From: Alphaproteobacteria bacterium
GTDB lineage: Bacteria > Pseudomonadota > Alphaproteobacteria > JAVJVX01
Reading direction: 5' to 3'
DNA length: 64,000 bases
Assembly (NCBI GenBank): GCA_040220875.1
Contig: JAVJVX010000009.1
Span: forward strand, 310,001 to 374,000
Shown: one piece after another, positions 14,308-49,058 of the stretch
How positions within the stretch are numbered: the stretch's first letter is position 1
How the letters are laid out: every line of letters begins with the position of its first letter
Made by a program: the position numbers and the translations under genes
Notes under the pieces: model-generated
What the model saw: the letters and a program-made list of their open reading frames with translations, nothing else
Databases searched by the model: none
Told to the model about the DNA's origin: nothing

Positions 14308-17006
14308 TCCCTCGCCCGGCTGACGGCATGGGTCCGCCGATGAACCCCGAGCTTCTGATAGATCTGGTGGACATACCAGTTGACCGTGCCTACCGCGAGC
14401 GACAGGTCGCCCGCCACCTCGCCGTTGGTCATGCCTTGTGCGATCCGGCGCAATACTTCGCGCTCGCGCAGCTTTAACGGCGCGCCGGCACGATGAAGCT
14501 GCGGCCTCTCGCCGTCCGGCTGAAGCCCGGCCCGAGCAGCCGACCGCCGCAACAATTCAGGGGGGCACTGGTCCAGAACGATGCGCAGGTGAGAGGCTTC
14601 CGTCGCCGACAGCCCGCGGCGGCTGGCCAGTTCGCCAAGCCTGGCGACGACAACGTCACCTTCATCCAGAAAGGGCCGGATGGTTCCGGTCTCGGCCGCA
14701 ATACGGATCGCGTCCCAGAGTCGGTCCAGGCCCTCTTCCTCGCAGTCTAGCCGGAACAGCATATCGGCAAGGACGATATTGAAATTGCAATCCGACCGCC
14801 GATAACCCCGGCGGCGAAGGAAGGCGATCCATGCACGCAGGACGGAAACGGCGCCACTGGCTTCATCCAGCCGGAATGCGACGCGGGCCCGGGCCAGGGC
14901 GCGCGCCTCGTCCGCCGAGGTCTGAAGACGTCCGGGATAAAAACCATCGGTCCCGTGATCCAGGAGCCCCTCGCGCCGGGCGAGCGCCAGAAATCCGCTG
15001 ACATCCCCCTGCAGGCCGAGCCCGCGGAGGCGCTCCTCCACAAGGTGTGCACGCAGACGTGAAAACCCGTGCGCCGCCGCACAGTCGAGCCCCCGCGCGA
15101 AAATCTCGGCCACTTCTTCATGCAACCGCCCCATATCGGCGAGACGCATCCCCGCGACATATCCCGCGATCAACTGATCGACCACACCGAGCGTGGTCGC
15201 CTTGTTGAGATAGAGCTGGACGAGGCGAACCGCTTCCCCGAGGCGATTGCGCTCATACAGGAACCCCGCAAGCGTGAGCGCCGGCAGGGCCACGAAAGAC
15301 GAATGCGCGCCGGCATGTTCGCTCGCCGCTTCGACGGCGCCGCGCAAAATACCTTCCACCTGACCGGCCTCACCAATCCCGATCAAGCAGATTGAGGCAA
15401 AGGTGTCGCTCCATATCTTGCCGCAATGCTGCCGATTGGACCGGAAAAGCTGTTCGCCGCGCGCAGCGTGATCCCGCGCCGCTTTGTAGGAATAGAGATT
15501 GTACTGAGAAAATGCGAAGGCCACATCTGCCGAGCCCTGCAGATACGGGTCGTCGAAGGTCGTTTCCGAGAGAAGGCGTCGCCAGACATCACGCGCCGAA
15601 AGCAGCCTGTCGGCGACCATGAGCTTCATGCCTCGGCGATGCGCGATCAGCGCCTCCAGCTCCTGGCCGTGATCCGCTTCCTCGCCCCTGTTGCGACGGA
15701 CAGTCCGGATCAGGGATTCCGCCTCATCGAAGCGCCATTCATGCACCAGGGCCCAGACGCGGTTGAGAAGAAGCCGCGGCTGGTGGCGGAGAAGCGCCGG
15801 CGGCAGCCGTTCGAGCCAATGAAGGACCTCGCCATAATGACCGGTGTAATAAAACTCGTCACAATGCTTGTTGAGGATACGTACGACGCCCTTGAAATCA
15901 CTCGCCGCAAAACAATGGTGCACGGCCTCGGCCATATATCCGTGACGATTGAACCAGGCCGCCGCCCGACGGTGCAGGCGCTCGACCCGCTTGGCGGGCA
16001 TGTTCGATGCCAGCCGCTGACAAAGAAAATCCGCGAACAGCGCATGGTAGCGAAACCATTTTCGCTCCGGGTCCAACGGCCAAAGGAACAGGTTTAACCG
16101 TTCGATTTCCGCCAGGTGGTGATGGGCGTCCGACTCGCCCGTGACGGCGTCACAAAGGTCGGGGGAAAGCTTTTCCAATATGGCGGTTTTGAGCAGGAAA
16201 TCCCGAACGCCTTGGGGCATGTTGTGAAATACCTCGTTCAACAGATATTCCGACAGCAACTGCTCATGCGCGCCGAATTCGCTGATGGCATCGAGTGGAA
16301 CGCGTCCTTCCTTGAGCGCGACCGCAGCCAGCTGCAAGGCGGCGGGCCAGCCCTCGGTCTTTTCCTGAAGCGCGGCGACTTCATCCCTGGAAAGCGAAGC
16401 GAGGCCCTGACTTTCGAAAAAAGACAGTGCTTCATTTGGTGCAAATGCAAGCTGCGCCTTACCAATTTCAACAATCGAGTCGTTCAGCCGAAGAGTCGCG
16501 CAGTCGAGGGCAGGGCTGACCCGTCCGGCGATGGCAAAGCTGAGCCAGGGGGGACCTTCGCGGAGCAGGAAGCCAAGCCACTCCCAGGACGGGTCGTCCA
16601 GGAAATGAACGTCGTCGAGCACGATCAGGAGCGGTTTCTGCGTCGCCGTCAGGGCCCGAACGACTTCTGCCCGATCGGCCAGGGCCATAGCCGGATCCGG
16701 AAAACGGCTGGCCACATAGGGGGCGCCCTGTGAGACAGCCTGAAGGAACTCGGTGACGAATTGCTGATAACGGCGGTGCCTGTCGTCGAGGCTGAGCCAG
16801 GCCACGTCGGTCCCCTCGTCGTGGACCCGATGCGCGAGCTGGGCCAGCAACCTGGTCTTGCCATAGCCGGCAGGTGCGACCACCGACAGCACCCGCCGGC
16901 CCTGATGAATGAAGGGTGAGAGAAGGTGCCCGCGCCCCACCCCGTGGCGCAAATGAAAGGGCGGCAGCGCGTTGGTTTGCGAGACAGCAGCCCGTGTCGG
17001 TGCCAT
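14292..17006 (-). CDS. MalT-like (LAL) LuxR-family transcriptional regulator, first copy
   Basis: This large 904-residue regulator has an N-terminal STAND/AAA-like ATPase with Walker A APAGYGKT and Walker B-like LLIVLDDVHFLDD, a long helical TPR-like middle, and a C-terminal LuxR helix-turn-helix (LKLREREVLRRIAQGMTNGE, VGTVNWYVHQIYQKLGVHRR). LAL proteins usually activate neighbouring operons after binding ATP and an inducer. The ATG at 17006 has an AGGAGG box about nine bases upstream and is favoured over the ATG at 17048. It is divergent from the Rieske operon starting at 17272, so that operon is its most likely target. The inducer is unknown. Confidence 0.88.
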   Translation of the reverse strand: MAPTRAAVSQTNALPPFHLRHGVGRGHLLSPFIHQGRRVLSVVAPAGYGKTRLLAQLAHRVHDEGTDVAWLSLDDRHRRYQQFVTEFLQAVSQGAPYVASRFPDPAMALADRAEVVRALTATQKPLLIVLDDVHFLDDPSWEWLGFLLREGPPWLSFAIAGRVSPALDCATLRLNDSIVEIGKAQLAFAPNEALSFFESQGLASLSRDEVAALQEKTEGWPAALQLAAVALKEGRVPLDAISEFGAHEQLLSEYLLNEVFHNMPQGVRDFLLKTAILEKLSPDLCDAVTGESDAHHHLAEIERLNLFLWPLDPERKWFRYHALFADFLCQRLASNMPAKRVERLHRRAAAWFNRHGYMAEAVHHCFAASDFKGVVRILNKHCDEFYYTGHYGEVLHWLERLPPALLRHQPRLLLNRVWALVHEWRFDEAESLIRTVRRNRGEEADHGQELEALIAHRRGMKLMVADRLLSARDVWRRLLSETTFDDPYLQGSADVAFAFSQYNLYSYKAARDHAARGEQLFRSNRQHCGKIWSDTFASICLIGIGEAGQVEGILRGAVEAASEHAGAHSSFVALPALTLAGFLYERNRLGEAVRLVQLYLNKATTLGVVDQLIAGYVAGMRLADMGRLHEEVAEIFARGLDCAAAHGFSRLRAHLVEERLRGLGLQGDVSGFLALARREGLLDHGTDGFYPGRLQTSADEARALARARVAFRLDEASGAVSVLRAWIAFLRRRGYRRSDCNFNIVLADMLFRLDCEEEGLDRLWDAIRIAAETGTIRPFLDEGDVVVARLGELASRRGLSATEASHLRIVLDQCPPELLRRSAARAGLQPDGERPQLHRAGAPLKLREREVLRRIAQGMTNGEVAGDLSLAVGTVNWYVHQIYQKLGVHRRTHAVSRARDQGLL

Positions 17007-24017: not shown

Positions 24018-25457
24018 TTACGGTTGCGCCGGGTAGCGGTGCGCCCAGGGGCGCGCAGTCTCCAACTGGCCCGCCAGTTGAAGCAACGCACGCTCACTCC
24101 CGATATTCCCGCCCAGTTGAATGCCCACAGGCCGATCATCCTCCGTCCAGTAGAGCGGCAGCGACATCGCCGCCCCGCCCGTGGCGTTAAATGGCCCGCA
24201 AAACGGCGCCAGAGCGAAGAGGCCATCCTTGAGATAACTCAGCGCATCGAGTCCCGGGACGTTCTGATTGATCCGGCCAATCTCGGGCGCAGGTTCCGAG
24301 AGCGTCGGTGTCAGCAGAAAATCGTAATCGGCAAAAAATCGGCCGTAATCCCGCGAAATCGTATTGAGCGTCATTTCAGCCGCGACCGCCCGCGTCGCCG
24401 GAAGGCGCAGGCCCGTTTCGATGGCTGACAATGTGACGGGCTCCACCGTATCGGGGCCGATTTCACGGCCGGTCGCGCCGGCCACCGCTTTGGCCACGAA
24501 GGCCATGAATATCACCATTTCGACGAACCAGGCATCGACGAAGGCATCCGCATCGAGAGGCGGATGGGCCTCGTCAACGTGGTGGCCGAGGTCCTCCAGA
24601 AGTTGCGCCGCTTCCCGGACGGCCTGACGGCAGGCCGGGTCCACCTTGAACGCGCCGTTAAAGTCCTCACTGACGGCAATTCTCAATGCCTTTGGCTTCT
24701 CGCCGACTGCGGCCCGAAAACTCCCCTCCGGCGCCGGCAGCCAATAGGGCGCCCCGATATCGGGGCCCGACGTCGCATCCAGAAGCGCCGCACTGTCCCG
24801 CACTGTGCGTGAAACAACATGTTCCACCGGCAGCCCGGCCATGGAGGTTCCGAGACCCGGGCCGAGCGGCACGCGTCCCCGGCTGGGCTTGAGTCCGAAC
24901 AGGCCGCAACAGGCGGCCGGGATGCGGATGGATCCGCCCCCGTCATTGGCGTGCGCCACCGGCACGATACCCGCCGCCACGGCGGCCGCAGATCCGCCAC
25001 TGGACCCGCCAGGGCTTCGATCGAGCGCCCAGGGATTGCGCGTGGGTTCGCCATATGCAACCGCCTCGCAATGCCCGCCGAAGCCGAATTCGGGGGTGCT
25101 TGTCTTGGCGAAGGTCACGAGGCCGGCCCGGCGATAGCGGGCCATAAGCTCGCTGTCCCGGTCCGGCGCGAAGCTCGCCATGAGACGCGACCCGGCCTTG
25201 GTTGGCTCGTCCTTGAGGCTGATGACGAAATCCTTGACGAGGAAGGGAACGCCCGTGAAAGGCCCCTCGAGCAGGCCTGCGTCGATCGCAGCCGCAGCGC
25301 TGTCCGCCATATCGTGCACAAGGGCATGGATACTGGGTTCAACCTCTGCCGCCCGCGCGCGCGCGGCCGCAAGAAGCTCGGCCGGCCGGACCGATTTTTG
25401 CCGCACCAAATCGGCCAGAGCCAACGCATCAAGTTTGACGTATTCCCCGGTTTTCAT
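24018..25457 (-). CDS. Amidase signature family hydrolase
   Basis: The 479-residue enzyme belongs to the amidase signature family, which hydrolyses carboxamides. The Ser-cisSer-Lys triad is visible: Lys in GVPFLVKDF, cisSer in [17 protein letters not shown] and the nucleophile in [10 protein letters not shown]. The ATG at 25457 has GGAGG eight bases upstream; the frame continues further upstream without protein-like sequence. It is the last gene of a minus-strand operon: Rieske alpha, beta, N-acetyltransferase, amidase. A pathway with an amine oxygenase, an acetylating enzyme and an amidase suggests acylation and deacylation of an aromatic amine or amide, but the substrate is not known. Confidence 0.9.
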
Positions 25458-25506
25458 GCTGTCATCCTCCCCGATGCCGGCCTGCGCCTTGCGTGGCCAG
25501 TCCCGC

Positions 25507-26352
25507 TCAACTGCCCGCCTGGTCCTCAGGCAGCCTTTCGATAATCTCATCCGACAGCCGGAAGATATCACGCAATAATGCGTCGCGGTCCTTCCCGGCG
25601 GTTCTCGTTCTTGCGGTATCGTCCGGGGAGACGACCGTGTACTCACCCTGAAAAATCGAGTGAATTTCATCCCCGCGGTTGGTCACGATGTAAAGACTTT
25701 GGTTAAACGCACTGTTCGTCCCGCCGGTCAAGGCGTAGCGCTCTCGAAAAACCTCGGCCGTCGTGGGATCAAACTCCGGCATTGAGCCGAACCGGAATAC
25801 GGTGTCGCGTTTTGCCGGAAAACGCCAATCGACGATGAAGCGGCCGTCTTCATATTCGGCCTCAAGGCGCAGGGATGGTACTTTTTCAACCACGGTTCGA
25901 TTTTCCGGATCCAGCGGTAGCGGCACTTCGGACAGCATGAAGGGATCCACCAGATACGGCTGCCCCTCGAGGCGAACCACCACAGTCCCGTGGCTTGGTG
26001 CCGGAATTTGCGGGAAGTCCAGCATCGCGCCTGCCATCCGATACGATTCAAAACCCAGCGCAGCAAGAAGAACCTGGAACGCCTCGCTCACCGGCCAACA
26101 GGTGCCGCCCGTCCCATGGGCAAGAAAATTCTCGAAAAAGGATTGGCTGGTGCCAAGCGGCAAGGGCCCGTGTTCTCCTTCCGAAATATGGATGCGCTTC
26201 TGCACCGAATCGAAGGGAACGTGCTGACACCACGCTGTATAGACTTTTTCCAGGTTTTCCAGATCGGGCTCGGTATGCGACCCGAGTTCAAGGCGATCCG
26301 CGACTCGCCGGATCAGTTCTTCGGAAACAGCCGGAGAAGACGTCTCGGACAT
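25507..26352 (-). CDS. Arylamine N-acetyltransferase family protein
   Basis: The 281-residue length and the Cys-His-Asp triad fit the NAT family, which moves an acetyl group from acetyl-CoA to arylamines, arylhydrazines or N-hydroxyarylamines. Cys lies in HGTGGTCWPVSEAF (about residue 85), His in APSHGTVVVRL and Asp in PYLVDPF. The sequence departs from the usual RGGYCFE and WLVDVGFG contexts, so it is a divergent member, and a related acyl-transfer or amide-forming role is possible. It sits between the Rieske beta subunit gene (37 bp upstream) and the amidase (49 bp downstream) in one operon. Confidence 0.8.
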   Translation of the reverse strand: MSETSSPAVSEELIRRVADRLELGSHTEPDLENLEKVYTAWCQHVPFDSVQKRIHISEGEHGPLPLGTSQSFFENFLAHGTGGTCWPVSEAFQVLLAALGFESYRMAGAMLDFPQIPAPSHGTVVVRLEGQPYLVDPFMLSEVPLPLDPENRTVVEKVPSLRLEAEYEDGRFIVDWRFPAKRDTVFRFGSMPEFDPTTAEVFRERYALTGGTNSAFNQSLYIVTNRGDEIHSIFQGEYTVVSPDDTARTRTAGKDRDALLRDIFRLSDEIIERLPEDQAGS

Positions 26353-26389
26353 GGCAATGGTTCTGGTCGGACTTGGGAAGGGGAGCGCC

Positions 26390-26986
26390 CTAGAAGATGA
26401 AGCTCACGTTGGGCAGGATTTCATCGGCATTCAAGAGGATAATGCGCTTCTGGCAGATTACGAAGGATCCCGCCGCCGGGCGCAGCACATGCTCGTAAAT
26501 GCCATGATGACGCGTGATCTCGCTGTTTCGCAATTCCGCGACCTGAAATGATGCTCGCGAAATGAAATCCCCCGTCTCGGGGCCGTAATGCCAGACCTCC
26601 ACCGACGACAGGCTGCGCTGCGTCCGCGAGGGGGGCTCCTGGGAATAAGCATATCCGGTGCGAAGGCGCGCGATCCGGTCAAGCAGTCGGCGCCGGTCAT
26701 CAAGCGTTACCGAGACTGTTTTGCCGGCGGCGTCCGGCGGATAGCTCGATGGCACCCAGTAAAGGCACCGGTCATCCATTAATTCCAGCCACTCCTCGAA
26801 ACGTTGCTCGTCAAGAAGTCGGCCCTCGAAGGCGAGGAAGTTGGCAATTTCCTCGCGCATCTCCTGTGCATCGGGGCGACCCCGGCCACGCGTGTGGTGC
26901 TCGTCCAGCTCCTGATAGAAGCGGTCGTTGATATAGACCGAAGGGGGCGCTTCTTCGAGGATGCCCGTCAATGCCCGTCGCGTCAT
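26390..26986 (-). CDS. Ring-hydroxylating dioxygenase beta subunit
   Basis: The 198-residue protein has the cystatin-like NTF2 fold typical of small subunits (EIANFLAFEGRLLDEQRFEEW, LMDDRCLYWVP, RLRTGYAYSQEPPSRTQRSLS, GDFISRASFQV). It forms a structural alpha3-beta3 complex with the alpha subunit and holds no metal. The ATG at 26986 overlaps the alpha stop as ATGA, which fixes the start. It resembles the beta subunit at 42031-42579 in general layout. The beta subunit shows this is a true ring-hydroxylating type enzyme, unlike the alpha-only oxygenases nearby. Confidence 0.9.
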   Translation of the reverse strand: MTRRALTGILEEAPPSVYINDRFYQELDEHHTRGRGRPDAQEMREEIANFLAFEGRLLDEQRFEEWLELMDDRCLYWVPSSYPPDAAGKTVSVTLDDRRRLLDRIARLRTGYAYSQEPPSRTQRSLSSVEVWHYGPETGDFISRASFQVAELRNSEITRHHGIYEHVLRPAAGSFVICQKRIILLNADEILPNVSFIF

Positions 26987-28323
26987 GCCGCCTCTCCCAC
27001 TCCCGGCAGAGGCCTGTTCATCAGCCTCTTCCACTCCCGATAATAGCCCCGCATGCCCGTATCACTGGTGACCTTGCCCCAGATAAGCCCCGCGTCGGGC
27101 TCCGGGCGGTCCGTCTCCAGCCCGCGGCTCATATCGACCCATTCAGCCTCGGGAATGGAAAGCCCCACCTGAATCTGCTCCCAGTTCTCGATGTCGTCCG
27201 ACTCGCCGAGATTGGGGAAGTCTTCGGCAATGCGGACACGGATGGCGTTGATTTCCTGCGGCACGCCCTCGAGAGTGGTGGCGTGCCAGATCATCGCGAA
27301 ACTGTGGGGTGACAACGGTTCGATCACGACAAGCTGATTACCGATCGTCATCAGATTGGGAAAGATATTCAGGTTCATCCCCGGTCCGGGGGCCTCCTCC
27401 AGCAGGCGGCGGGCCTCTTCGGCGCCATATTCCTCGATGAGCTGGGCCTCGTAGGCATCGCCACCGGGCGTCGGGCGGGCGCGCTTCCACAGGCTGCCCA
27501 TGCCGGGAAACTGGTCCAGGAAAGTATGTCCGTTGCCAAGCGAGACCTGATACATGTCCGTGTCGTCCGGCTCGCCATTGAAGTGCGACAGCGACTTGCC
27601 CTGGCCGTAGCGCCGCTCCGACATCATCAGAACGGATCGGTGCGAGGTTTCCGGATGATAACCATCGGTGGAATTGTCCCAGACGGTTTTCCAGTTGGCC
27701 TTGACGAGCATCCGGTGTTGACCGTTGCGCAATTTGAGCCTGCCGTCGCGGGATCTGTCTATGAACCGGTCGAGATAGGGACGCGCATTGCCCAGATATG
27801 TCTCCAGCGGCGGTACATCGGAAGAGAGGGAGGCGAAGATCAGCCCCCTGTAAGAATCGACGACAGCAGCCTTCCTGAGATTGTAATCGGAAAGTTTGAA
27901 TGACGAGCCGTACCCCGAAACCATCGGTACGCCCTTCAACTCCCCTTTCAGATCGAACGTCCAGCCATGATAGGGGCAGAGAAAGTTTTTCGCCGATCCG
28001 TAAGGAGCACGGCACAAGCGCGTGCCCCGGTGGCTGCACCGGTTGAACAGAACCGCGAAGGACCCGTCCGGCACATGGGTCAGGATGACAGGGCGCGTCC
28101 CCATGGTAGTCGTCTTGTAATCGCCAGGCTCCGGGATTTCGCTTTCGTGGCCCACATAAACCCAGTTCGCACCAAAGATTTTCAGGTTCTCCTCGCGGAA
28201 GACCTCGGGGTCGACATAGAGGCGGCGATGGACCTTGGAGTCCCGGACATAGTCGTCCCATCGTCCAGTGTTTGATATCGCCCCCGGATAAGGCTGGGCC
28301 ATGTGATTGTCTGAAGTGGTCAT
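26983..28323 (-). CDS. Ring-hydroxylating dioxygenase alpha subunit (Rieske)
   Basis: The 446-residue large subunit has the Rieske motif CSHRG ... CPYHGW and an iron site DGYHPETSH with bridging Asp and H-X4-H. It pairs with the beta subunit encoded next and would dihydroxylate an aromatic ring or hydroxylate an aromatic amine. The ATG at 28323 has a poor ribosome-binding site; the Met at 28302 is an alternative. Divergent from it is a LysR gene at 28516, the likely regulator. Neither a ferredoxin nor a reductase is encoded in the operon, so electrons must come from elsewhere. Confidence 0.92.
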   Translation of the reverse strand: MTTSDNHMAQPYPGAISNTGRWDDYVRDSKVHRRLYVDPEVFREENLKIFGANWVYVGHESEIPEPGDYKTTTMGTRPVILTHVPDGSFAVLFNRCSHRGTRLCRAPYGSAKNFLCPYHGWTFDLKGELKGVPMVSGYGSSFKLSDYNLRKAAVVDSYRGLIFASLSSDVPPLETYLGNARPYLDRFIDRSRDGRLKLRNGQHRMLVKANWKTVWDNSTDGYHPETSHRSVLMMSERRYGQGKSLSHFNGEPDDTDMYQVSLGNGHTFLDQFPGMGSLWKRARPTPGGDAYEAQLIEEYGAEEARRLLEEAPGPGMNLNIFPNLMTIGNQLVVIEPLSPHSFAMIWHATTLEGVPQEINAIRVRIAEDFPNLGESDDIENWEQIQVGLSIPEAEWVDMSRGLETDRPEPDAGLIWGKVTSDTGMRGYYREWKRLMNRPLPGVGEAA

Positions 28324-29566: not shown

Positions 29567-30784
29567 ATGACCACAACCGCCGAGCGCTTTCCAGGCGAGA
29601 CGCAATACCGGCCCAACCATCATCTGAGCAAACATCCCGAAATCGGGACGGGTCCGGTTCCCATCGCCCCGCTGACGTCGCCCGAATATTTCGAGAGGGA
29701 GCGCGAGCGTCTGTTCCGCCGGACATGGCTTAATGTCGGCCGGGCCGAGCAGATCCCCAACGCGGGCGATTTCTTCACCATCGATCTTGCCGTCGCGCGG
29801 ACGTCACTGCTCATCGTGCGCGCCAAGGATGGTTCACTTAAGGCTTTTCATAACGTCTGCCAGCACCGGGGCAACCGACTGGTCTGGGATAAAGCCGGCC
29901 ATTGCAAGGGCGCGTTGAGCTGTGGCTACCACGGCTGGACCTACGATACCTCGGGCAAGCTGCTTTACGTGCCGGACGAGGAAAATTTCTGGGAACTCGA
30001 CAAGGCCAAGCACAGCCTGGCCCAGGTCGCCGTGGATACGTGGAAAGGTTTCGTTTTTGTCAACCTTTCACCCGAGTCGGCGCCGCCCCTCCTCGACTAT
30101 CTCGGTCCCGTTGCGGAAGAACTGAAGAATTACCCCTTTGAACAGTTTACCTATGGTGTCCGGTATCTCGTCGAGGTGGCCGCCAACTGGAAAATCTGCG
30201 CCACCTCGCAGGAAGAGGGCTACCACCTGCCCTATGTACACAAACAATCCCATGGCCGGGCGATCCCCCATGATCCGGACGGCAACTTTCGCAGCATCGA
30301 AATCGAGCTTCTGGGCGATCACTCCAGAATTACGACGGGCCCGCATCCCGACTTCAGGCCGAGCCGCATGGAAGCCGTCACGATGCGCTACCTGTCCGGA
30401 TTCGTGGATGCCTTTTCGCAGGATTCTTCCGGCAATGACGAACATGCCCATACCTTCGATTACTATAGTATTTTCCCCAATTTCCACATGCTCGTGCTCA
30501 ACGGAAATTATCTCCGCTACAATTTCTGGCCCATCAGTGAGGACAGAACCCTGTGGGAAATAACCGCCTTTTACCCGGAACCCCAGAATGCCGGCGAGCT
30601 GCTTGCCATCGAGTATGGCAAATGCGCGGGCCGCGACATCGTGCAGGAAGATGTGCCAATGCATGAGGCCATCCAATCAAGCCTCCGGGCGGGCGCGATA
30701 ACGTCATTCAATTTCCACGATGAGGAAACCGCGGCTCGGCAGACGATGCATGTCGTCGATCGCTACGTAAATGAACCCCAATAA
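29567..30784 (+). CDS. Rieske oxygenase alpha subunit with small downstream partner (bridging-Glu type)
   Basis: The 405-residue oxygenase has CQHRG ... CGYHGW and the iron site QEEGYHLPYVH, where Glu stands in the bridging position. The C-terminal half shares with the oxygenase at 47874 the stretches YPFE, ANWK, Y-N-Y/F-WPIS and R-T-L-E-I, so the two are one subfamily. Both are followed directly by a homologous small gene. The ATG at 29567 follows GGGAGGGAACC. Alpha-only Rieske enzymes with a bridging Glu include amine demethylating types such as CntA, so a nitrogenous substrate is possible but unproven. Confidence 0.9.
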   Translation: MTTTAERFPGETQYRPNHHLSKHPEIGTGPVPIAPLTSPEYFERERERLFRRTWLNVGRAEQIPNAGDFFTIDLAVARTSLLIVRAKDGSLKAFHNVCQHRGNRLVWDKAGHCKGALSCGYHGWTYDTSGKLLYVPDEENFWELDKAKHSLAQVAVDTWKGFVFVNLSPESAPPLLDYLGPVAEELKNYPFEQFTYGVRYLVEVAANWKICATSQEEGYHLPYVHKQSHGRAIPHDPDGNFRSIEIELLGDHSRITTGPHPDFRPSRMEAVTMRYLSGFVDAFSQDSSGNDEHAHTFDYYSIFPNFHMLVLNGNYLRYNFWPISEDRTLWEITAFYPEPQNAGELLAIEYGKCAGRDIVQEDVPMHEAIQSSLRAGAITSFNFHDEETAARQTMHVVDRYVNEPQ

Positions 30785-30806
30785 CAGAGATCAGGGAACC
30801 AGGCGC

Positions 30807-31127
30807 ATGTTTCCTCCGCAATTTTCCGACCTAGAGAAGTACGCCGATTGGGCGCTCCCGACCGAAGTCGACCGCCATCAGAAGCGCATGGCTTCCCCCT
30901 ATGAGGAGGTTGAAGCGTTTTATGTGACCGTCCTGGAGAAGATCGATCCGGTGATGGACCACCTCAACAGCTTCAAGCTGAACGAGATGCCGCCGGAAGA
31001 AGAGGCGTTGAAAAATCTCGTGCTTTCTCTGGCGGAAGTCTCGCCAGCCGTCGAATTCTATCAGAGCACCCAAGTGCGCGGCGGGCTCGATTCCTTCAGA
31101 ATGAAACCGACGCCCTTCAACACCTGA
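30807..31127 (+). CDS. Small helical acidic protein, Rieske-partner family, copy 1
   Basis: I do not recognise a named family. This 106-residue protein is clearly related to the one at 47532-47873: both have P..FS.LE near the start, a KR.AS..EE.E.FY block, EKI, L..F.L, a PP..E turn, and L...EV.PAVE near residue 85. Predicted structure is mostly alpha helix, with no signal peptide, cysteines or metal-ligand pattern. It follows a Rieske oxygenase of the same subfamily in both places. An ATG at 30771 would overlap the oxygenase stop but lacks a ribosome-binding site; the ATG at 30807 is my choice. A small subunit or assembly factor of the oxygenase is an inference. Confidence 0.75.
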   Translation: MFPPQFSDLEKYADWALPTEVDRHQKRMASPYEEVEAFYVTVLEKIDPVMDHLNSFKLNEMPPEEEALKNLVLSLAEVSPAVEFYQSTQVRGGLDSFRMKPTPFNT

Positions 31128-35444: not shown

Positions 35445-36422
35445 ATGGCCCTTCTCCGCCCTGTCACGGATGACGAGATTGCCACCTATCAGCGCGACGG
35501 TGTCGTCCATCTCCGCAAAATCATCGACCAGCACTGGGTGGGCGAGCTGCGCGCGGCAATCACCGACATCATGGAAAATCCGATTTCGACGGCGGCGAGC
35601 CTGACCAACCTGGGCCTGATGTCCAACGATCCTGATCAGGTCAAAGGCTTTGTCGCAGGTTCTGACTGGACGTCGGACAATGACTATGCCGCACTGACGG
35701 CACGGACCAACCCGGCCCTTTCCGGCCAGGTGCTGATCGATGAGGCGGTCTCGGACACTGCGGCGGAACGGGGCCAGTTCTTCCACGCCGGGAACGCCTG
35801 GATGCACAACCAGACAGTGCGGGACCTTTGCCTGCACTCTCCCATGCCCGAGGTTGCCGCAACATTGATGCAGTCGAGCCATGCCTACCTTTACGGCGAT
35901 CAGGTTCTGGTAAAAGGTCCGCTCACTCGCGAGAAAACGGCCTGGCACCAGGATTACGGTTACGGTCACTACGAGGGCCTGCAGATCTGCGCCGTGCGCA
36001 TGCCGTGCGATTCCGAGACGCGCGATACCGGGACGGTCGGCTATGTCCGTGGCTCGCACCGGCCGTCTGTGGTCTACAAGGTGAATTATTTCGTTAGCAA
36101 CGCCGCCAGCCCTGACGATGACGGCGTTCTCGTACCGGAGATCGACGGCCACGAGGACGAATTCGACATCGTGTATTTCACACCGGAGCCTGGCGACCTC
36201 GTTATTCACGACATCGCCACCCTGCACGGCGGTGGCGGTAACCGGTCCGAGACACAGACCCGAAGGGCGATCACGGTGCGCTATGCGGGCGACGATGCTG
36301 TCTACAAGAAACGGAAGATGGCGCCACCGCAGGCGCTCGAGCCGACGCTCGAGCCGGGACAGCCCATCGGGGACGACCCCGTTTCCTTCCCGAGGGCCTG
36401 GCCGCCGAAAGCACGCGCCTGA
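35445..36422 (+). CDS. Phytanoyl-CoA dioxygenase (PhyH) family oxygenase
   Basis: The 325-residue protein is a 2-oxoglutarate- and iron-dependent dioxygenase. The facial triad is visible: His and Asp in AWHQDYGYG (about residues 168 and 170) and the distal His in TLHGGGGN (about 260), with the 2-oxoglutarate-binding Arg in RRAITVRYAG. GYVRGSHRPS is a family hallmark. Members hydroxylate fatty acyl chains, betaines, ectoine or aromatic compounds, so the substrate is open. The ATG follows GGGAGGA. It is divergent from the LAL regulator and converges with the DUF1989 pair. Family assignment is secure. Confidence 0.88.
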   Translation: MALLRPVTDDEIATYQRDGVVHLRKIIDQHWVGELRAAITDIMENPISTAASLTNLGLMSNDPDQVKGFVAGSDWTSDNDYAALTARTNPALSGQVLIDEAVSDTAAERGQFFHAGNAWMHNQTVRDLCLHSPMPEVAATLMQSSHAYLYGDQVLVKGPLTREKTAWHQDYGYGHYEGLQICAVRMPCDSETRDTGTVGYVRGSHRPSVVYKVNYFVSNAASPDDDGVLVPEIDGHEDEFDIVYFTPEPGDLVIHDIATLHGGGGNRSETQTRRAITVRYAGDDAVYKKRKMAPPQALEPTLEPGQPIGDDPVSFPRAWPPKARA

Positions 36423-45349: not shown

Positions 45350-46396
45350 TTATGTGGCTGACCGAGAGGCCCTTAGTTCAGGGATGGTAAACTCACCGTC
45401 CCGGAGGATCAGATCGCCGTCAAGCCAAAGGCTGCAATTCTTCATCGGCAGATCTAGATGGCAAGCCGTATCGTTATCACCACCAAATTCAGTATTCGGG
45501 CCGGTCGAGAAGAGCACGTTTCCATAATAGGCCCGGCCATCCATGCCAACTCCCGGAAAATCGACCCGCCATTCGCATTTTTCGTTTAAGCCCCAACCAA
45601 TATGTGACACGGCGAAGGCACGCGGATCGTCGTAGTTTTCCATATACGATTGGAGTTTTTGCGCGCTTTCGCCACCATCAATGCTTTGAATCATACCGTC
45701 CATAACGGTGAATTCTATGGGGTCCTTCACGAACTCCTTGAACGGATAAAGAATGTCGCCGGGTGCCATGACTACCTTCCCGCGAATGTCGCCCACCGCA
45801 TAGGTCGAAAGAAATCCGCCTGGCCAGTGATCCCAACGACCGGGTGTATCGGCGAATCCGTACTCAGGAAGCAACCGTGCCTTGCCAAGTTCGTATAAAA
45901 CATCGGTCCCGGCGGCATTTGTAAATCGTAACTGACTGGCATTCTTGAGGAGCTCTTCGGACAGCTGCACTCTTCGATGTTGATCCTCCGTGGGCATAAG
46001 GCGTTCAAGGATTTCGAGCGGCTCAACAACCAGGAGCACGCGCGCACCTCCCGACTCAATTTCAATCTGTTCCTTGGAGAACAGAAGAAATATGAGATCT
46101 ATGACGAGATCCGTAGTCTTAAGCCTTTCTATCGCCTGTCTATTTCCCACTAAAGCGTTATCGGCGAGGTTCGCGAGCCGTTCATTGGCCGATTTATCGT
46201 TGTGGGAAGGCAGATTAACGTCGATCGGATCTGCACCGAGTTCTTTGGCAGCCTGAATGAAGCCAAGAGCGTAATCCCTAGCGCTATTCCCTTCCGAAAG
46301 AATGCCCACCGTTTGGCCCGGACCGACCTTGCAAAGGACAAGCTCCTTCTTAAAAAGTTCCACCATTTTTCGATCTGGTTCGGCTGTGCGCATCAT
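45350..46396 (-). CDS. NicX-like extradiol ring-cleaving dioxygenase (2,5-dihydroxypyridine dioxygenase family)
   Basis: The 348-residue protein strongly resembles 2,5-dihydroxypyridine 5,6-dioxygenase NicX of the M29-peptidase-like fold: EYGFADTPGRWDHWPGGF, DPRAFAVSHIGWGLNE, GMDGRAYYGNVLFSTGPNTE and NDTACHLDLPMKNCS. The predicted iron ligands His265, His313 and Asp315 are present, matching the known H-H-D set. NicX opens the pyridine ring to N-formylmaleamate. The NicD-like hydrolase upstream would deformylate the product. The true substrate may be a different dihydroxylated N-heteroaromatic. The ATG at 46396 has GGAGA upstream. A second copy is at 57331. Confidence 0.85.
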   Translation of the reverse strand: MMRTAEPDRKMVELFKKELVLCKVGPGQTVGILSEGNSARDYALGFIQAAKELGADPIDVNLPSHNDKSANERLANLADNALVGNRQAIERLKTTDLVIDLIFLLFSKEQIEIESGGARVLLVVEPLEILERLMPTEDQHRRVQLSEELLKNASQLRFTNAAGTDVLYELGKARLLPEYGFADTPGRWDHWPGGFLSTYAVGDIRGKVVMAPGDILYPFKEFVKDPIEFTVMDGMIQSIDGGESAQKLQSYMENYDDPRAFAVSHIGWGLNEKCEWRVDFPGVGMDGRAYYGNVLFSTGPNTEFGGDNDTACHLDLPMKNCSLWLDGDLILRDGEFTIPELRASRSAT

Positions 46397-46455: not shown

Positions 46456-47232
46456 TCAGGTCAGAAAACTCAGGATCGACTTTTGAAAGGCGGCCGGCTG
46501 TTCCACGTAACTTACATGCCCGGCATCGGAAATAACTGCGAGTTCAGTATTAGGAATTTCCTCGGCGAGCCGGAGGCCACTTTCAACAGGAATTACCTGA
46601 TCCGACTCTCCCACTAAGACGAGAGTCGGCACCCGAATCTTGGAAAGTTGATCCGCCATATCAAAACCACAGAGCACATTCTTCAGCACCGTCCCGTAAA
46701 TTTCCGGATCGTTTCGCGCCAATATCTCGGAAATCCATTCTCGCGCGAATTCCCCGGCTTTCGGTCCAACAGCCTGATTAACCACCATCTGTGCATAATC
46801 ATCCATCGACATGGATTCAATTGCCGTTAGTCGGGCTTGAATAACGTGATCCGGCATAGTCATTTGACCGGCGGTATGGCAGAGCAAGAGCGAGCGGAAA
46901 TCCTCCGGGCCCGTCGCGTAGAGATATTGCGCGATAAACCCGCCCAACGATGTCCCTAGAAAGTGAACCGGCCCCAGGTCGAGTGTTCTAATTACATTGC
47001 GGATATCCTCCGCCATTATCGGAAGGCTGTAGTTATGGTCTCCACGTGGACGGTCAGACCGGCCAAAACCTCTCAAGTCGACTGCGATCACATGGAAATA
47101 TTTTGAGAGGTTCTCGACTTGCAGCAGCCAAAGGTCGCTTCCGGCCCCGATCCCATGGACCAGGACGAGGGGCTCACCGCTTCCCCACTGGCGGACGTTC
47201 AGGACGATATTGCCAAACACCTGGCGTGACAT
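46456..47232 (-). CDS. Alpha/beta hydrolase, NicD-like
   Basis: The 258-residue hydrolase has HGIGAGSDLW (oxyanion region), the nucleophile elbow GTSLGG, the acid in VGESDQV and the catalytic His in DAGHVSYVEQP. NicD is an alpha/beta hydrolase that removes formate from N-formylmaleamate, the NicX product; the gene order here places this hydrolase immediately upstream of a NicX-like gene, so that role is plausible. Sequence alone cannot separate it from other alpha/beta hydrolases such as MhpC or CatD. It heads a likely operon hydrolase-NicX-SDR. The palindrome at 47257 lies 25 bp from the ATG at 47232. Confidence 0.8.
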   Translation of the reverse strand: MSRQVFGNIVLNVRQWGSGEPLVLVHGIGAGSDLWLLQVENLSKYFHVIAVDLRGFGRSDRPRGDHNYSLPIMAEDIRNVIRTLDLGPVHFLGTSLGGFIAQYLYATGPEDFRSLLLCHTAGQMTMPDHVIQARLTAIESMSMDDYAQMVVNQAVGPKAGEFAREWISEILARNDPEIYGTVLKNVLCGFDMADQLSKIRVPTLVLVGESDQVIPVESGLRLAEEIPNTELAVISDAGHVSYVEQPAAFQKSILSFLT

Positions 47233-47531: not shown

Positions 47532-47873
47532 TCAACTTCTCGTTTGGTGAATCACTTGTCTTTCAGGATCCATAGAATATGGCAGGTTCGGATTTCCGAA
47601 CAGTTCAACAGCAGGCGCCACTTCCATAAACATTAATGCCAGATCTAACAGCACCATTTCCCTGGGGGGCAAATTCTCCAAGGGAAACCTATCCAGATAG
47701 GCCGCGATTTCTTCTATTTTTTCTATCATTGCCTTATAGAATTCTTCGAGTTCCTCAGCGCTACTGGCAAGTCGTTTCGCGCGGCGCGCTTGCTCGCCTC
47801 TCACGCTCCACTCGCGTACGAGGAACTCCAACGCGCTGAAATCCGCAGGCAATTTCTCCACTGTCATTGTCAT
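47532..47873 (-). CDS. Small helical acidic protein, Rieske-partner family, copy 2
   Basis: The 113-residue protein is homologous to the one at 30807-31127 (alignable with one gap; shared FS.LE, KR.AS, EE.E.FY, EKI, PP.E, EV.PAVE). It is acidic and probably helical, with no Cys and no signal. The start ATG at 47873 comes immediately after the oxygenase stop (TAAATG), so it is translationally linked to the Rieske gene at 47874. The family has no name I recognise. Its repeated pairing with one Rieske subfamily suggests an essential helper, for example a subunit, chaperone or substrate-channel part; this is an inference. Confidence 0.78.
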   Translation of the reverse strand: MTMTVEKLPADFSALEFLVREWSVRGEQARRAKRLASSAEELEEFYKAMIEKIEEIAAYLDRFPLENLPPREMVLLDLALMFMEVAPAVELFGNPNLPYSMDPERQVIHQTRS

Positions 47874-49058
47874 TTATTTTTTCGCAATCCAGTCAGTCGC
47901 CACTTTGTGGAGATGCCGACAAAGGATCTCTTGATCCCCAAAATGAATATGATTCATTGTGCCGCTACTCAGACCCTTTTGGCATTCCTCTATCGACAGC
48001 CCATCTTCACAGTCCGCTTCCCGCATGACAACCAACGCGAATTCGCGGCCGATGACATCGCTGGGCTTTTTCGGGCGCTCGTAAAATCGATTGATTTCCA
48101 GAAGAGTCCTCTTTGCGCTGATTGGCCAATAATTGTAAGAAAAAACCCAGCCGTCCCCTATGGTCATAATGTGATTGGGGAAGATAGTCGCGAAGTCGAA
48201 CGCAAACCCCTTTAGGTTGTCGACATTAAGTCCCCTCAATGCTTGGTCACGCATGCCGCGGGAAAGAGCCGCACCTTCCTCCGACGCCGTACTTCCAAGC
48301 CGTTGGGCTATCCTTTCGGCTGGCGTTGGCTTGTAGTTGGCATCTCCAGCATTACTTCCGATTTGATGCGGGCCATAGAATCTGACCTTCTCAATGGCTG
48401 AAAACCCGCCAGGGATGGTACGCGAATGTAGTCCGGGAAGATGGTAAATTTCTTGCGTATTGTGCATCGCAAGCTTCCAATTCGCGTCCAGAACCTGGGT
48501 GTATTTTCCGACCAGCACCAAGTCCTCGAACGGGTATGGATCCAAATGTGCCTTCATACCGCCAAGAAAATCAGGCAGGGACTCCATCGGCTCCTTCAAA
48601 AGATTGATAAAGATTTTTCCTGCCCATGTGTCCACATGCACAGGAGCAAGACCGTTCTCACTCTTGCAGAGCGAGGGGAATGCCTCCTCCTGCGTGACAG
48701 ACAGAAGATTCCCCTCGATATCGTATGTCCACCCGTGAAATGGGCAGGTGATATATTTCCTTGATCCTGTTCCCGATAACAAACGGCTGGCCCTGTGTTT
48801 ACAAACGTTATGGAATGCCCGGACCTCTCCGTTCTTCGCTCGAATAACGATTATTGACGCGTTTAACACATCGAGATTCTTGACCAGGAAATCTCCAGGA
48901 TCCGGGATTTCCTCTACCCTACCAACCATAAGCCAGCTGCGACGAAAAATCCGTTCCCGCTCCATATCGTAGATGTCATCTGAGAGGTACGGCTCCACCG
49001 GCATTGGATCGAGGTCGAAATCCGGAAATTCTCTGGTAAGTTTAGGCTGTAATTCCAT
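47874..49058 (-). CDS. Rieske oxygenase alpha subunit with small downstream partner (bridging-Glu type)
   Basis: The 394-residue oxygenase has CKHRA ... CPFHGW and the iron site NTQEIYHLPGLH with bridging Glu. The same subfamily features as the protein at 29567 are seen: Y-N-YWPIS and a trailing family block. No beta subunit is present; the small acidic protein follows directly. It lies downstream of the FAD oxidase at 49115 (56-bp gap), with which it probably forms an operon. Substrate unknown. The oxygenase lacks its own reductase. Confidence 0.9.
   Translation of the reverse strand: MELQPKLTREFPDFDLDPMPVEPYLSDDIYDMERERIFRRSWLMVGRVEEIPDPGDFLVKNLDVLNASIIVIRAKNGEVRAFHNVCKHRASRLLSGTGSRKYITCPFHGWTYDIEGNLLSVTQEEAFPSLCKSENGLAPVHVDTWAGKIFINLLKEPMESLPDFLGGMKAHLDPYPFEDLVLVGKYTQVLDANWKLAMHNTQEIYHLPGLHSRTIPGGFSAIEKVRFYGPHQIGSNAGDANYKPTPAERIAQRLGSTASEEGAALSRGMRDQALRGLNVDNLKGFAFDFATIFPNHIMTIGDGWVFSYNYWPISAKRTLLEINRFYERPKKPSDVIGREFALVVMREADCEDGLSIEECQKGLSSGTMNHIHFGDQEILCRHLHKVATDWIAKK

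Follow-up and report, generated by a model that had tools for sequence, protein, structure and literature searches.

A family of small proteins, predicted to be all-helical, is encoded directly beside the alpha subunit genes of a single clade of Rieske oxygenases, and on balance we favor reading them as dedicated, non-catalytic subunits of that CntA-like clade. Rieske oxygenases, with which bacteria degrade ring compounds, are among the most studied biocatalysts. The genomic evidence gives good support to a dedicated partnership between the small protein and a Rieske clade, and structural modeling gives moderate support.

Two small genes and their Rieske neighbors

The window, the whole stretch of 64,000 nucleotides that was analyzed, comes from an alphaproteobacterial genome of 2.54 Mb (9 contigs, 99% complete) that encodes 23 Rieske alphas and ten copies of the small protein. 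Two of these copies lie in the window, and the features relevant to them are as follows.

29567..30784, + strand: Rieske oxygenase alpha of pair 1 (405 aa; PF00355 E 4e-17, PF00848 E 7e-26), a member of the small-paired clade
30807..31127, + strand: small partner protein of pair 1, all-helical by prediction (106 aa; homology to the second copy; profile match)
45350..46396, - strand: relative of 2,5-dihydroxypyridine 5,6-dioxygenase in the pair 2 cluster (41% identity to a Variovorax WDL1 protein)
46456..47232, - strand: alpha/beta hydrolase in the pair 2 cluster (PF00561 E 4e-35)
47532..47873, - strand: small partner protein of pair 2 (P0002), all-helical by prediction (113 aa; homology; AlphaFold model)
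47874..49058, - strand: Rieske oxygenase alpha of pair 2 (394 aa; PF00355 E 2e-19, PF00848 E 3e-29), from the same clade as the pair 1 alpha

A first-pass annotation of this DNA had proposed that the two small open reading frames are homologous and that each follows a Rieske oxygenase gene. The homology was borne out (38% identity over 95 aa with one gap, E 1e-19), and both small genes do lie directly 3′ of alphas carrying PF00355 and PF00848. As a general rule, however, "following" does not hold: among 101 adjacent pairs in the wider family the order is alpha-small in 77 and reversed in 24. At pair 2, the alpha stop TAA abuts the ATG of the small gene (TAAATG, 47874/47873), as had been described. 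At pair 1, 22 nt separate the alpha stop (30782-30784) from the small-gene start at 30807, and a possible alternative in-frame ATG at 30771 would give a protein of 118 aa that overlaps the alpha stop. Also as described, the two pairs are encoded on opposite strands and have different base compositions (57% GC and GC3 0.70 for pair 1, 50% GC and GC3 0.56 for pair 2); window GC drops sharply from ~62% to ~53% near 40 kb and stays low until the window ends, with pair 2 inside the low-GC block. The suggestion that the pairing is conserved was strengthened, as it lies far beyond chance. The genome holds eight further copies, each adjoining a Rieske alpha, so that 10/10 of its small genes are placed in this way; by a rough count from gene numbers, a random gene would adjoin an alpha in ~1% of cases.

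Rieske genes are abundant in this region. At least eight alphas fall between window positions 16000 and 62000, which is unusually dense for a genome so small (23 alphas in 2.54 Mb). A classical Rieske alpha/beta pair is found at 24018-28323, where the beta gene (26390-27034) matches PF00866 with E 5e-25; immediately downstream on the same strand, one gene resembles an arylamine N-acetyltransferase (25507-26352) and another encodes an amidase (24018-25670), and this segment possibly encodes an aromatic amine or amide pathway.

An uncatalogued family confined to one alpha clade

Neither small protein from the window matched a Pfam or NCBIfam family above cut-off, the best sub-cut-off matches being MitMem_reg (E 0.016) and C45_proenzyme (E 0.13). 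No match to the TorD/NarJ, DmpK, or MmoB/DmpM families was returned from either catalogue. The PF00866 beta subunit was not matched by either protein even at E 1, and nor was SnoaL_4 (PF13577), which some cluster neighbors do match. A profile of 27 members found no sequence relatives in the PDB (best E 0.05). We collected 103 distinct relatives, one of them from a Rhodococcus and the others from Alpha-, Beta-, and Gammaproteobacteria. Plasmid-borne members occur in Cupriavidus, Variovorax, Burkholderia, Acinetobacter, sphingomonads, Azospirillum, and Rhodococcus, and members in genomes were found for Zoogloea, Ideonella, Pandoraea, Marinobacter, Acinetobacter, Burkholderia, Sphingobium, and Novosphingobium. 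Distribution is patchy: the family was present in 17/385 genomes of an alphaproteobacterial class sample and, in a phylum-wide sample of 399 genomes, only in the window's own genome. In a 66-sequence alignment, W22 and R30 (P0002 numbering) are invariant; L8, P9, F12, L15, R34, F45, Y46, and L75 are nearly so, and the C-terminal tail is conserved.

Homologues lying mostly away from Rieske genes had been named by the first-pass annotation as a finding that would tell against its idea, and this is not what we observed. In all, 101 of the 103 distinct small proteins are encoded on the same strand as an alpha and directly beside it, with ≤175 nt between conserved regions (median 36 nt), though the 103 are not independent events, as a part of them came from a contig search with a one-subgroup query and includes many orthologues. 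The class sample of 385 genomes is a less biased set, and there every small-gene match adjoins an alpha; 12 of its genomes hold 20 small genes against 175 alphas. Start/stop coupling is frequent in the pairs, including 4-nt ATGA overlaps in L060, L062, L064, and L065, and no natural alpha-small fusions were seen among the open reading frames examined. The two exceptions both sit in rearranged plasmid DNA. In one (L066, 5282-6330), carried by Sphingobium indicum B90A on its lin plasmid, the small gene follows an EthD-domain gene and linC in a segment with no Rieske gene, ~100 nt from IS6100. The other (L052) lies in apparently degraded transporter DNA. Two further loci show unusual arrangements: three alpha-small pairs are packed into 14 kb of Novosphingobium plasmid pABRDHK22 (L056), with the gene order reversed in one, and in Sphingomonas sp. 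NBWT7 (L060, 4702-6294) the paired alpha is split into two open reading frames, for the Rieske and catalytic parts, beside an intact small gene.

The proposal that the small protein is tied to one Rieske subfamily agrees with the alpha phylogeny. In a tree of 70 alphas, built by a quick search without bootstrap and with the unpaired alphas being a sample, a single group of 39 (SH-aLRT 97) takes in every genuinely paired alpha. A single nominally "paired" alpha outside the clade is a bystander, as the other neighbor of its small gene is in the clade. Gene order switches between alpha-small and small-alpha several times inside the clade. The genome's four PF00866 beta genes adjoin alphas outside it (L030-L033), and none of the ten own-genome pairs (0/10) has a PF00866 neighbor. 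The clade also contains two unpaired alphas from the same genome, L026 (C9:77848) and L027 (C5:489562), near which no small gene, even a divergent one, was found. The gene after L026 is phytanoyl-CoA dioxygenase-like and resembles one at window position 35445. Both expected motifs are retained in the paired alphas, the CxH..CxxH cluster motif in 98/99 and the NWK..ExYH....H 2-His catalytic motif in 96/99. In these 96, the motif position of the residue that connects the Rieske site with the iron site is a Glu, as it is in CntA.

Alpha and small proteins diverge together. Their distance matrices correlate across the ten own-genome pairs (Mantel r 0.72, p 1.5e-4) and across 40 thinned pairs (r 0.69, p 2e-4). 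Since the own-genome pairs are paralogues in one genome, species history does not explain their correlation; operons traveling as units would also give such co-divergence. Inter-protein coevolution was uninformative at a Neff of 41.

Predicted structure and cluster context

AlphaFold, given P0002 with 66 relatives (plasmid rows left out of the alignment), returned an all-helical model with no strands (pLDDT 91.6, pTM 0.84) and predicted helices at residues 10-22, 27-36, 39-50, 53-60, and 70-92. A Foldseek search of the PDB with this model found no fold match (best E 3.2). Co-folding with alpha, proposed by the first-pass annotation as a check, was performed on L008, an own-genome pair with both genes in the same frame. 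With the alpha TGA read as Gly, the modeled chain comprises alpha, a linker of ~20 residues, and the small protein; this read-through is a modeling device and is not claimed to be natural, and the model used monomeric alpha and only 9 paired rows. The small domain reached a pLDDT of 95-98, the linker was disordered (<50), and the chain as a whole had a pTM of 0.90. Because alpha makes up ~75% of the chain, a small domain placed at random would limit pTM to about 0.8 or less, and the observed value implies that the domain is confidently placed. Its position on alpha is predicted to an expected error of a few angstroms, which we take as support and not proof. In this model the small protein has short strand segments in its C-terminal tail; they are absent from the isolated P0002 model, which is of a different paralogue.

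In both sequence and fold, the alpha partner is matched best by CntA, the oxygenase of carnitine monooxygenase (alpha3; PDB 6y9c, 6zgp) and the nearest solved relative of the pair 2 alpha. CntA was solved as alpha only, with no small partner in its listed architecture. A similar gene arrangement is that of the PF00866 beta subunit, for example IadE of Variovorax IadD/E (PMC10374108), a small protein likewise encoded beside a Rieske alpha and lacking a catalytic motif. However, PF00866 betas are NTF2-like proteins of ~160-200 aa, whereas the small family is all-helical in prediction, ~110 aa long, and associated with another alpha clade; its strandless model does not fit the NTF2-like alpha+beta cone fold. 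IadE was rejected as a relative, as it is a canonical COG5517/NTF2-type beta.

Genes flanking the pairs vary between clusters while the alpha is constant. They include formamidase, SnoaL_4, Rieske ferredoxin, and reductase genes, and the redox genes differ: some pairs have a Rieske ferredoxin, others a PDR/VanB reductase, and others none annotated within 6 kb. SnoaL_4 (NTF2-like) genes are also small genes near the same alphas, but they occur in the clusters of only 2/10 own-genome pairs and several others, and their fold is unrelated to that of the small family. Being in only some clusters, NTF2-like neighbors were rejected as the constant partner. By eye, the Marinobacter cluster appears to carry catechol 2,3-dioxygenase-like and aldehyde dehydrogenase genes, and an Acinetobacter cluster (L057) contains a styrene/indole monooxygenase. 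L057 has the same gene order as a cluster of Acinetobacter piscicola p38 in which genes 1684 (Rieske alpha), 1687 (styrene monooxygenase), and 1690 (ferredoxin) are induced by skatole/indole (PMC11434297). In L057 the small gene comes after alpha; the p38 paper does not mention a small gene, and from the numbering gene1685 would be the family member. In the window, the protein at 45350..46396 is related to an annotated 2,5-dihydroxypyridine dioxygenase that is encoded beside the Variovorax WDL1 pair. Because of the match to the skatole-induced cluster and this dioxygenase relative by pair 2, N-heterocycles are a plausible substrate class for some members. The Rhodococcus ska cluster was set aside as a comparison, as its published account gives no detail on skaD/Z/E.

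A probable partner subunit and the alternatives

The first-pass annotation had suggested a dedicated small subunit or assembly partner for alpha-only Rieske enzymes. The dedicated partner stands, with adjacency, restriction to one clade, co-divergence, and the model all in its favor; "alpha-only" has to be qualified, given the SnoaL_4 genes in two of the ten own-genome clusters. Our searches agree with its sense that such a partner would be new, turning up neither a catalogued family nor a PDB relative, nor a third subunit already described. The literature searched contained no account of a third or accessory Rieske subunit, though one could exist in subscription papers. In a 2025 review, the only Rieske assemblies given are alpha3, alpha3beta3, alpha3alpha'3, and alpha3alpha3 (PMC12445004).

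In the subunit reading that we favor, the small protein would bind its own alpha directly through a defined interface, as the model predicts, probably 1:1 and so probably with three copies per alpha trimer. It would fold into a bundle of helices whose extended C-terminal tail rests on alpha, would take the place of the NTF2-fold beta of alpha3beta3 enzymes, and might stabilize the trimer or shape either the substrate entry or the docking face for the redox partner. Pairing that outlasts changes of gene order at several points of the tree counts for this reading. Against it stand the two clade alphas with no adjacent small gene (L026 and L027), the small-family homologue beside an EthD gene (L066), and the SnoaL_4 protein of some clusters, which could be the real beta-like subunit.

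The most serious competitor, which we nevertheless consider unlikely, is a dedicated assembly or maturation factor that binds nascent alpha, aids cofactor insertion or trimerization, and then leaves. Precedents of this type are DmpK, a small assembly protein of phenol hydroxylases, and the helical TorD/NarJ chaperones of molybdoenzymes. A small, all-helical, uncatalogued protein encoded strictly beside one enzyme subunit fits such a role, the confident predicted interface would suit a chaperone equally, and the two clade alphas with no copy of their own could borrow one. However, ten co-diverging copies in one genome exceed the usual need for a chaperone, the small protein matches no chaperone family or fold, and related alphas such as CntA have been solved without one. 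We prefer a permanent subunit because the clade's paralogous alphas almost all have a co-diverging copy of their own, which is expected of an alpha-specific stoichiometric partner and less so of a shared factor. An effector or coupling protein, comparable to MmoB/DmpM in the diiron monooxygenases, would bind alpha transiently and tune substrate binding, electron transfer, or redox-partner docking. The alpha specificity implied by co-divergence, the invariant W and R, the conserved tail, and the occurrence with several kinds of redox partner are also consistent with such a role. We regard this as improbable; no effector is known to us among Rieske enzymes. Least probable is that the small protein is no partner of alpha at all but an enzyme or regulator sharing the same catabolic operons. 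The two homologues with no adjacent alpha (L052 and L066) would fit this idea, but both are in the rearranged DNA described above, and it sits poorly with an alpha that is constant among varying neighbors, with order flips that never separate the two genes, and with their co-divergence.

These enzymes may form a new quaternary class, alpha3gamma3, in which an all-helical subunit with a fold not in the PDB replaces beta across the CntA-like clade, with N-heterocycle breakdown among its roles; we put the chances of this at about even. An overlooked partner could explain poor activity if enzymes of the clade are expressed as alpha alone, and with its recognition many "hypothetical proteins" of plasmids and genomes that degrade pollutants could be better annotated. 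The well-studied Rieske enzymes would then probably have a kind of partner subunit so far undescribed.
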